DNA of 40,817 bases from the NCBI GenBank assembly GCA_016177005.1, contig JACOWC010000002.1, positions 1 through 40,817 of the forward strand, in the 5' to 3' direction. Below the pieces are notes generated by a model, which saw only the letters and a program-made list of their open reading frames with translations, was not told the origin of the DNA and made no database searches. The stretch comes from Methylocystis sp. Lineage in GTDB: Bacteria > Pseudomonadota > Alphaproteobacteria > Rhizobiales > Beijerinckiaceae. A program made the position numbers and the translations under genes. The first letter of the stretch is position 1, and every line of letters starts with the position of its first letter. Below are positions 35,169 to 37,224 of this stretch, one piece after another.

Positions 35169-35274
35169 GGGTTCTGATAGCAGGCGGGACGCAGCAGGAG
35201 GAAGTGCCTAAAATTGACTCTTGCTTAACTAGCACGCTCTAATCTATGTTCTTCATATGTTCTGGCGTTCTCAA

Positions 35275-36033
35275 ATGGCTAATGCGACTTCTATCGAGTG
35301 GACCGACGCTACTTGGAATCCCGTAACCGGCTGCACGAAGATCAGCGCGGGCTGCAACCATTGTTATGCTGAAAGGTTCTCTGAGCGTTTTCGCGGCACG
35401 CCAGGCCACCCGTTCGAGCGAGGTTTCGATCTGGTGTTGCGCCCAGAAAGGTTGAAGCAACCTCTAAATTGGCGGGATCCCAAGCTAATCTTCGTGAACT
35501 CGATGAGTGACCTGTTCCATAAGGAAATTCCTCGTCCATTCCTCGACGAGGTTTTTGCAACCATGGAAGCCGCCGACTGGCACACCTTTCAGATTTTGAC
35601 AAAGAGAAGCTCTCTTTTGCGAGACTATATAAACAGCCGCTATCCCAACCAGCCTGCGCCCGCGCACATTTGGTTGGGAGCGTCAATCGAAAATGCAAGG
35701 GCGAAATCCAGAATTCGGCATGTGCAAACGGCAAATGCGTCTATTCGTTTTTTGTCCATTGAACCGCTGATCGGGCCGCTCGGAAAAGTCGATCTTTCAG
35801 ACATCGACTGGGTTATCGTTGGTGGCGAGAGCGGCCCTAAAGCACGCCGAATGCACCCAAACTGGGTTCGTGAAGTCCGCGATCAATGTGCGGAGGCGAA
35901 CGTGTCGTTTTTCTTTAAGCAATGGGGCGGCATCAGGCCAAAATCTGGGGGGAGAACGCTTGACGGGCGCGAATGGAATCAGATGCCCCCTCTTCTGGTC
36001 GATAAGCAAATTCTCTCGGTGGCGGCTGAATAA
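35275..36033 (+). CDS. Three-Cys-motif protein, phage Gp37/Gp68 (DUF5131) family
   Basis: 252 residues. The N-terminus MANATSIEWTDATWNPVTGC leads into Cys20-x6-Cys27-x2-Cys30 (CTKISAGCNHCYAERF), the three-Cys signature of this family, thought to resemble radical-SAM cluster sites. Further family blocks are FVNSMSDLFHKEIP, WHTFQILTKRS, IWLGASIEN, FLSIEPLIGPL and VIVGGESGPKARRM. Genes of this kind occur in phages and bacterial islands beside TcmP, as here; no reaction is established to my knowledge. The ATG at 35275 matches family starts; the one at 35257 is possible. Base composition is lower in GC than neighbouring core genes. It lies 18 bases before tcmP and is probably cotranscribed. Confidence 0.9.
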   Translation: MANATSIEWTDATWNPVTGCTKISAGCNHCYAERFSERFRGTPGHPFERGFDLVLRPERLKQPLNWRDPKLIFVNSMSDLFHKEIPRPFLDEVFATMEAADWHTFQILTKRSSLLRDYINSRYPNQPAPAHIWLGASIENARAKSRIRHVQTANASIRFLSIEPLIGPLGKVDLSDIDWVIVGGESGPKARRMHPNWVREVRDQCAEANVSFFFKQWGGIRPKSGGRTLDGREWNQMPPLLVDKQILSVAAE

Positions 36034-36051
36034 ATTAGATGGCGGCGTTCG

Positions 36052-37224
36052 ATGGAAAACGTTTATGGCGGACGAGAACAAACTCGTGCCAAACATTTTA
36101 TTCTCAAAAAATATTTAGAAACTCTGACCTTCAAATTATTGCAAGGAGGCCACTCAATCTTGACCTATGTCGACGGATTTTCAGGGCCGTGGAAGCCGAA
36201 GGCGTCGGATTATTCAGATACATCGTTCATGATCGCAATTCGAATTTTGAAGAATGCGCATCGCAAATTCCGTGACGACGGCAATCCGAAGGAAGTTAGA
36301 TGCTTTTTCGTTGAAGAGAATGCGGATGCGTATGGGCAGCTGAGGGCCGCAGTTTCAGCTCACGACGACCCCAGCAACGGCTTTCATGTTAGATCATATG
36401 GGGGCACATTCGAGGAAGCCATTCCTCAGATCAAAAATTTCATAGGCGATTCGTTTGCTTTGACTTTCATCGATCCAACTGGATGGACGGGATACGACCT
36501 TAATAAGATCGCCCCCGTTTTGCGTCACCATCCGGGAGAAGTGCTTGTCAATTTCATGTACGATCATGTGAACCGGTTTATTGGGAGCGAGGATCCGAAA
36601 ATCATCTCGTCTTTCGATTCAATCCTGGGCGGACCAAATTGGAAAGACCGGCTCGACAGGAGCCTGCCCCGTGGACTCGCTGCGGAAATGCTGTTCAAGG
36701 AAAATCTCAAAAAGGCTGGGCGGTTTAAATACGTTCTGTCGACCCGAATTGATAAAGCTACAGCAAACCGACCGCATTTTGCGCTCGCATATGGCACACG
36801 AAGTCTGGCTGGCCTAAAGGCGTTTCGTCAGGTCGAATTTGAAGCCTTGCGCGCGCATGAAAAGCAGCGTCTTGAAGCAAAGCACGCCAAAAGACAGGCG
36901 AGGACAGGCCAAGGAAGCTTATTTGGCGCCGGTGAGCTTCCGGAGGCGGGCTCGATTGACGACGTCGTGACCGAGAATGTTGAAGCTGCGCGAAGATGGA
37001 TTGTCGACTATCTCCGCCGACGTGGTTCGGTAAGATTTACTGAACTCTGCGAGAACGTTCTTCTCACACACATGCTGCGAGAGACGAATGTCAAAGACAT
37101 TTGTGTGGAATTGGCGGAGAAGGGGGTGATAGCTGCATCGTGGCGCAACGAGACGCCAAGAAAGCAAAAGCCGAATGACCATCATTTGATCGCGCTTGTC
37201 GCGAACAAGCCGGTCGGCCCATGA
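36052..37224 (+). CDS. tcmP: Three-Cys-motif partner protein TcmP
   Basis: 390 residues, the recurrent partner of three-Cys-motif proteins. The opening KHFILKKYLETLTFKLL is typical. The N-terminal half looks like a SAM-dependent methyltransferase: YVDGFSGPW (Asp41) resembles motif I, CFFVEEN (Glu88-89) the ribose-binding acidic residue, and FIDPTGW (Asp141) the DPPY-like catalytic motif. The C-terminal part has a charged helix (FEALRAHEKQRLEAKHAKRQAR) and a likely winged-helix domain (RRRGSVRFTELCENVLL to GVIAASW). The substrate is unknown. One hand-counted 60-base line (36241-36300) is 28/60 G+C, against 40/60 in tadA (37381-37440). The stop overlaps the tadA start as ATGA. Confidence 0.9.
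   Translation: MENVYGGREQTRAKHFILKKYLETLTFKLLQGGHSILTYVDGFSGPWKPKASDYSDTSFMIAIRILKNAHRKFRDDGNPKEVRCFFVEENADAYGQLRAAVSAHDDPSNGFHVRSYGGTFEEAIPQIKNFIGDSFALTFIDPTGWTGYDLNKIAPVLRHHPGEVLVNFMYDHVNRFIGSEDPKIISSFDSILGGPNWKDRLDRSLPRGLAAEMLFKENLKKAGRFKYVLSTRIDKATANRPHFALAYGTRSLAGLKAFRQVEFEALRAHEKQRLEAKHAKRQARTGQGSLFGAGELPEAGSIDDVVTENVEAARRWIVDYLRRRGSVRFTELCENVLLTHMLRETNVKDICVELAEKGVIAASWRNETPRKQKPNDHHLIALVANKPVGP

Follow-up and report, generated by a model that had tools for sequence, protein, structure and literature searches.

What do two adjacent genes of low G+C content do between rluB and tadA in Methylocystis sp., and when might they be expressed? We analyzed a window of 40,817 bp, the whole stretch of DNA under study, that contains these genes. 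They encode proteins of the DUF5131 and TcmP families; the families and their pairing are already known. In searches that covered mostly open-access papers and no preprints, we found nothing published on what DUF5131 or TcmP does, or on regulation of either one by the SOS response, beyond papers on the mycobacterial recA operon, and no report of a DUF5131 fold like that of spore photoproduct lyase (SPL). Our preferred reading, to which we give a probability of about 0.58, is that the module is a mobile, SOS-induced operon for nucleic-acid repair or processing that is under the control of LexA.

The two-gene module and its insertion site

The two reading frames reported in an earlier note on this DNA are present in the sequence, at 35257-36033 and 36052-37224, and are flanked, as reported, by rluB (35168, minus strand) and tadA (37221, plus strand). 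The main features are:

35257-36033, plus strand: DUF5131 reading frame as annotated in the ORF list
35275-36033, plus strand: DUF5131 (Gp37/Gp68) protein from its probable start, 252 aa (PF07505, E=4e-98)
36052-37224, plus strand: TcmP, three-Cys-motif partner protein, 390 aa (TIGR04474, E=5e-40); its stop overlaps the tadA start
35195-37220, plus strand: inserted segment between rluB and tadA, from alignment to the empty-site intergenic regions of eight congeners (edges +/- ~10-20 bp)

The module differs from its neighbors in base composition, in agreement with the earlier note. Its G+C content was 0.509, compared to 0.65-0.66 in the flanks, and its GC3 was 0.53-0.58, compared to 0.84 for tadA and 0.76 for rluB.

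The module was acquired horizontally. We searched for tadA in 39 genomes of the genus and then used tblastn on the resulting loci. In all 28 other resolved congeners, rluB and tadA were directly adjacent, with neither DUF5131 nor TcmP between them. Homology to these empty sites ends on the left after GATAGCAGGCGGGACGC (~35194) and restarts on the right within the first tadA codons; there was no integrase or transposase inside the inserted segment. In one relative, G027, the module occupies the same rluB-tadA site, split over contigs (rluB-DUF5131 on one and TcmP-tadA on another), with ~89-90% nucleotide identity to the Methylocystis locus over the module and flanks. Based on the 28 empty sites and the insertion in G027, we conclude that this lineage gained the module before it and G027 diverged. 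The earlier note had proposed a recent transfer and had named, as the pattern that would speak against it, the same genes with matching composition in all close relatives; 28 congeners were without the module. The empty sites and the lower G+C content uphold transfer, but not its recency, and we dropped the idea of a very recent event because this sister genome carries the module at the same site.

LexA operators ahead of the gene pair

An apparent LexA operator, absent from the earlier note, is the strongest functional clue and moves the likeliest function towards DNA damage. The consensus of the alphaproteobacterial LexA box is GTTC-N7-GTTC.

35248-35262, plus strand: LexA/SOS box GTTC-TTCATAT-GTTC, an exact match to the alphaproteobacterial consensus
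35214-35243, plus strand: probable sigma-70 promoter TTGACT-N18-TCTAAT, 10/12 consensus bases

The box overlaps the annotated start of DUF5131 at 35257 and is 12 bp upstream of the ATG at 35275. The gene probably starts at this ATG, because the family alignment begins there and 35257 falls inside the box. The promoter candidate scored above the shuffled mean of 6.8 in our own scan, but a stricter scanner found no sigma-70 site, and we therefore regard the promoter as tentative. Neither lexA nor recA was found in this genome, which is 65% complete, and we used the recA genes of relatives instead; the same box was upstream of recA in 6/8 genomes examined from the genus.

The box might be incidental, and the pair an ordinary transferred cassette with no role in the SOS response. 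There were two exact matches to GTTCN7GTTC in the window, compared to 1.5 expected; the second (37042-37056, minus strand) is within the TcmP coding region and is at chance level. A lone match in 40.8 kb is uninformative, and we therefore tested the box comparatively, using the DNA ahead of DUF5131-TcmP loci in named genomes and in genomes from across the class.

The box was associated with the starts of these operons across the Alphaproteobacteria. In an unbiased count of all gapped 4-mer repeats and palindromes, GAACN7GAAC ranked highest, in 31 of 62 upstream regions, compared to six for the next unrelated repeat and a maximum of six in shuffled sequences; spacers other than N7 gave 0-1 occurrences. 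Operon starts had 30 boxes in 6,964 bp, whereas the remainder of these loci had 13 in 340,793 bp, a 113-fold difference in density (P 1e-50). The extended consensus is AT-GTTCT-N2-TTTT-GTTC-T, mostly ~27 bp ahead of the first conserved codon. An exact box heads 31 of the 59 alphaproteobacterial pairs, and clustering of the 31 DUF5131 proteins concerned at 80% identity gave 26 groups. It was found with either gene order (27/50 DUF5131-first and 4/7 TcmP-first operons) and with both types of TcmP (short, 10/24; long, 21/35). Nine of the 28 pairs in which the exact box is missing have 7/8 bases, compared to 1.8 expected. Solo DUF5131 genes, with no TcmP, had the box in 0/9 cases in the genus and class set and in 1/11 among alphaproteobacteria, that one gene being truncated at a contig end. 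The pair thus has the appropriate operator at its promoter, conserved across orthologous operons, as expected for a member of a LexA regulon, and SOS control of the pair is well supported computationally. Convergent pairs on rhizobial plasmids were without the box, and SOS control would therefore be common but not universal.

A different LexA operator precedes the pair in Actinobacteria, where LexA recognizes CGAACN4GTTCG. We found nine occurrences of GAACN4GTTC in 22,680 bp near DUF5131 or TcmP starts, compared to two in 191,339 bp elsewhere (~38-fold enrichment), and 0-1 near starts for other spacers (2, 3, and 5-8). The copy on a Rhodococcus plasmid has TCGAACAAGGGTTCGA (TCGAACN4GTTCGA) at -32. 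The computational comparison thus showed LexA operators at the operon start in two phyla, and two different operators before the same pair place it in the DNA-damage response. The position conserved across dozens of divergent loci, and the replacement of the box by the actinobacterial one in Actinobacteria, make it highly improbable that the box is incidental.

A TcmP gene is also part of the mycobacterial recA operon. In BCG, the TcmP gene BCG_2748c adjoins and follows recX (BCG_2749c); its counterpart in M. tuberculosis is Rv2735c, and we take Rv2734 to be the DUF5131 partner of Rv2735c. Rv2735c, the gene after recX, is co-transcribed with recA-recX (PMC3062782), and Rv2734, Rv2735c, recX, and recA form a cluster that responds to mitomycin C (PMC5057432). 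These papers provide the co-transcription and the induction and do not name TcmP-DUF5131 (PMC3062782, PMC5057432). The recA-recX-Rv2735c operon is similar to the loci described above in that a TcmP gene is within a DNA-damage regulon, and different in that transcription is from the recA promoters. In the sampled actinobacterial loci, no recA adjoined TcmP within the flanks. Rv2735c is reported to be frameshifted in 16/27 isolates from one high-prevalence group of M. tuberculosis lineage 4 (PMC9846648).

The gammaproteobacterial SOS box CTGTN8ACAG was in 0/19 gammaproteobacterial pairs, and GAACN7GAAC was in 3/19, not above the shuffled maximum of five. The named genomes outside the Alphaproteobacteria had no clear common box and a weak GCGA-N7-GCGA signal. 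Upstream of acidobacterial pairs (L118, L126, and L133) there is a direct repeat of the GCGAA type, with an 11-bp period as in the alphaproteobacterial LexA box, that is possibly an acidobacterial SOS box.

Predicted folds of the two proteins

Computed models showed a fold for each protein. The features used below are:

35332-35364, plus strand: Cys20-x6-Cys27-x2-Cys30 of DUF5131, candidate [4Fe-4S] ligands, from conservation
36172-36186, plus strand: motif I of TcmP, D41-G-F-S-G45, predicted SAM-binding loop, from a 30-sequence alignment
36967-37137, plus strand: winged-helix region of TcmP, residues 306-362 (PF22560 GMT-wHTH, E=0.0012, below cut-off)

The first protein belongs, as proposed, to the Gp37/Gp68 family (328 bits for PF07505, compared to a gathering score of 28.9), long annotated as "phage Gp37/Gp68" and now DUF5131. 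Its three-cysteine motif has the claimed numbering when the protein is counted from the ATG at 35275. The three cysteines were invariant in a 45-sequence alignment, and CX6CX2C was present in 198/206 DUF5131 reading frames.

The closest solved fold to DUF5131 is that of SPL. The six best PDB matches of the AF2 model (pLDDT 89) in Foldseek were all SPL (E 3e-3 to 7e-3, probability 0.99-1.0, TM ~0.5 (0.53), 12% identity). The order of strands and helices in the model is that of a radical-SAM enzyme, with a partial TIM barrel and a cluster loop after strand 1; the cysteine loop (residues 20-30) comes right after the strand at 17-19. The resemblance to radical-SAM proteins that the earlier note had suggested therefore extends to the fold but not to the cysteine spacing, the canonical CX3CX2C being absent. 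We consider DUF5131 a putative enzyme with an SPL-like radical-SAM fold. The two families have in common the barrel, the three cysteines, and an SOS operator in front, and splB of alpha- and beta-proteobacteria is an independent precedent for regulation by LexA (PMC3323433). They differ in spacing (CX3CX2C in SPL), in that DUF5131 often has a partner with a methyltransferase fold, and in sequence: there were no SPL models among Pfam and NCBIfam matches up to E=1, and a PDB sequence search with DUF5131 or TcmP gave nothing significant. No SPL was found in the Methylocystis relatives. DUF5131 also resembles the radical SAM mobile pair protein A (TIGR04471), itself from a mobile pair, which aligns to residues 21-222 (E=7e-21). 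However, the score was 75 of 355 bits, far under the curated cut-off, and the partner of that protein is a second radical-SAM protein whereas the partner here is TcmP. A solo DUF5131 gene in Mesorhizobium phage vB_MseS-P1 is annotated "spore photoproduct lyase" and has an ASCH-domain gene after it; partners of another kind may exist for solo DUF5131s.

The second protein is a TcmP with a methyltransferase-like fold, as the earlier note had recognized. Its TIGR04474 score is 138 bits (curated cut-off, 53), and the expected three-Cys neighbor, the DUF5131 gene, is 18 bp upstream. The AF2 model (pLDDT 90) has a class I, Rossmann-like fold with best matches to RlmJ (4e-6) and Trm1 (1e-5). Together with motif I, it has the motif II acid (E88) and motif IV (D141-P142-x-G144) of class I SAM-dependent methyltransferases; these residues and S58 are invariant or nearly so in 30 sequences. 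Motif IV varies across the family (DPFG, DPTG, DQYG), with DPFG and DPYG common. In several groups DQxG replaces DPxG, and methyl transfer may therefore not be general. The motif IV of Trm1 is DPxG, as in TcmP. RlmJ and Trm1 have the class I fold and SAM motifs in common with TcmP but are only 11-12% identical to it; TcmP has in addition an N-terminal helix and a C-terminal winged helix, and it travels with DUF5131. The proposed winged helix was below threshold in the Pfam match of this protein, but the domain was found in 16/31 TcmPs (best 3e-18) and fits the AF2 secondary structure.

Distribution and likely function of the pair

About one in ten of the sampled genomes has these families: DUF5131 was in 56/387 alphaproteobacterial and 30/323 gammaproteobacterial genomes, and TcmP in 44/379 actinobacterial genomes. 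DUF5131 is also in at least 161 phage records. The pairing recurs in mobile DNA, as the earlier note had stated, both on plasmids and in temperate phages. Flanking genes are unrelated from locus to locus and include a few integrases, transposases, and scattered defense genes. There was no constant third partner, and no flanking family occurred more than three times among 133 proteins. In paired loci the mean identity was 54% for DUF5131 and 22% for TcmP, and TcmPs that are only 14% identical can accompany DUF5131s that are 65-80% identical. TcmP is therefore either swapped between loci or evolving very fast.

We infer LexA repression, induction by damage, Fe-S and SAM chemistry, and repair as the steps by which the operon might act. 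LexA would normally occupy the box, covering the transcription start. DNA damage would activate RecA, LexA would be cut, and both proteins would be made. TcmP, with a class I SAM-binding fold, a winged helix, and high variability, would recognize a nucleic-acid target on which the conserved, SPL-like DUF5131, with three cysteines for an Fe-S cluster, would carry out 5'-deoxyadenosyl-radical chemistry. Most likely, a damaged or alkylated base would be repaired or processed as a result. More tentatively, DUF5131 and TcmP could be joined in a complex of two SAM-using enzymes whose radical chemistry would directly undo one class of lesion in DNA bases. The same speculative version would have the pair spreading horizontally across phyla, each copy under the LexA switch of its host, with variants of TcmP setting the lesion or sequence.

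The main rival to a repair or processing operon is an SOS-inducible system against phages or other mobile elements, because the mobility and the fast-evolving partner fit it too. Damage by an invader would trigger the pair, TcmP would recognize either a phage product or nucleic acid of foreign origin, which DUF5131 would then modify or poison. The earlier note had also considered a defense pair. Both proteins match the two components of the PADLOC phage-defense candidates PDC-M30 and PDC-M41 (1e-102, 1e-17), in whose description we found no SOS control; PDC is, however, a candidate status only, based on guilt by embedding. The pair is patchy in distribution, divergence is far more rapid in TcmP than in DUF5131, with TcmP apparently swapped between similar DUF5131s, and in the Gordonia phage Easley the pair is between the integrase and the immunity repressor. 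Some flanks are defense-like (capP, mad1/mad3, and DRT), but the matches are scattered, 18 families with one member each of the 133. In addition, the M. tuberculosis recA operon has a TcmP as its third gene and the nearest fold to DUF5131 is that of a repair enzyme, and we find a defense role doubtful. The earlier note had raised tRNA modification too. It seems to us improbable that the pair, expressed during the SOS response, modifies or repairs tRNA or rRNA, with RNA methylated or bound by TcmP and a modification added or reversed by DUF5131. The best structural matches of TcmP are RNA methyltransferases, one TcmP weakly matches PF04378 RlmJ, and the common DPFG/DPYG form of motif IV agrees with this alternative. 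However, SOS control points to DNA, winged helices are more common in DNA binding, and methyl transfer is hard to generalize to the DQxG groups.

The SOS box and the folds make a widespread pair testable as part of the DNA-damage response, and reduce an open annotation, including that of the third gene of the M. tuberculosis recA operon, to a few direct experiments. If the repair reading is true, SPL-type radical repair would extend beyond spores.

The pair seems to be often lost. There were broken copies, with TcmP in three reading frames at one locus (L001, genome G018) and DUF5131 in two in another genome (G002; L011/L017). A Pseudomonas aeruginosa plasmid (NZ_CP124633.1, L284) has two TcmP genes near genes for DUF6094 and a DEAD helicase, and the stretch between them, for which no annotation is listed, apparently closes with a DUF5131-like frame just before the second TcmP.
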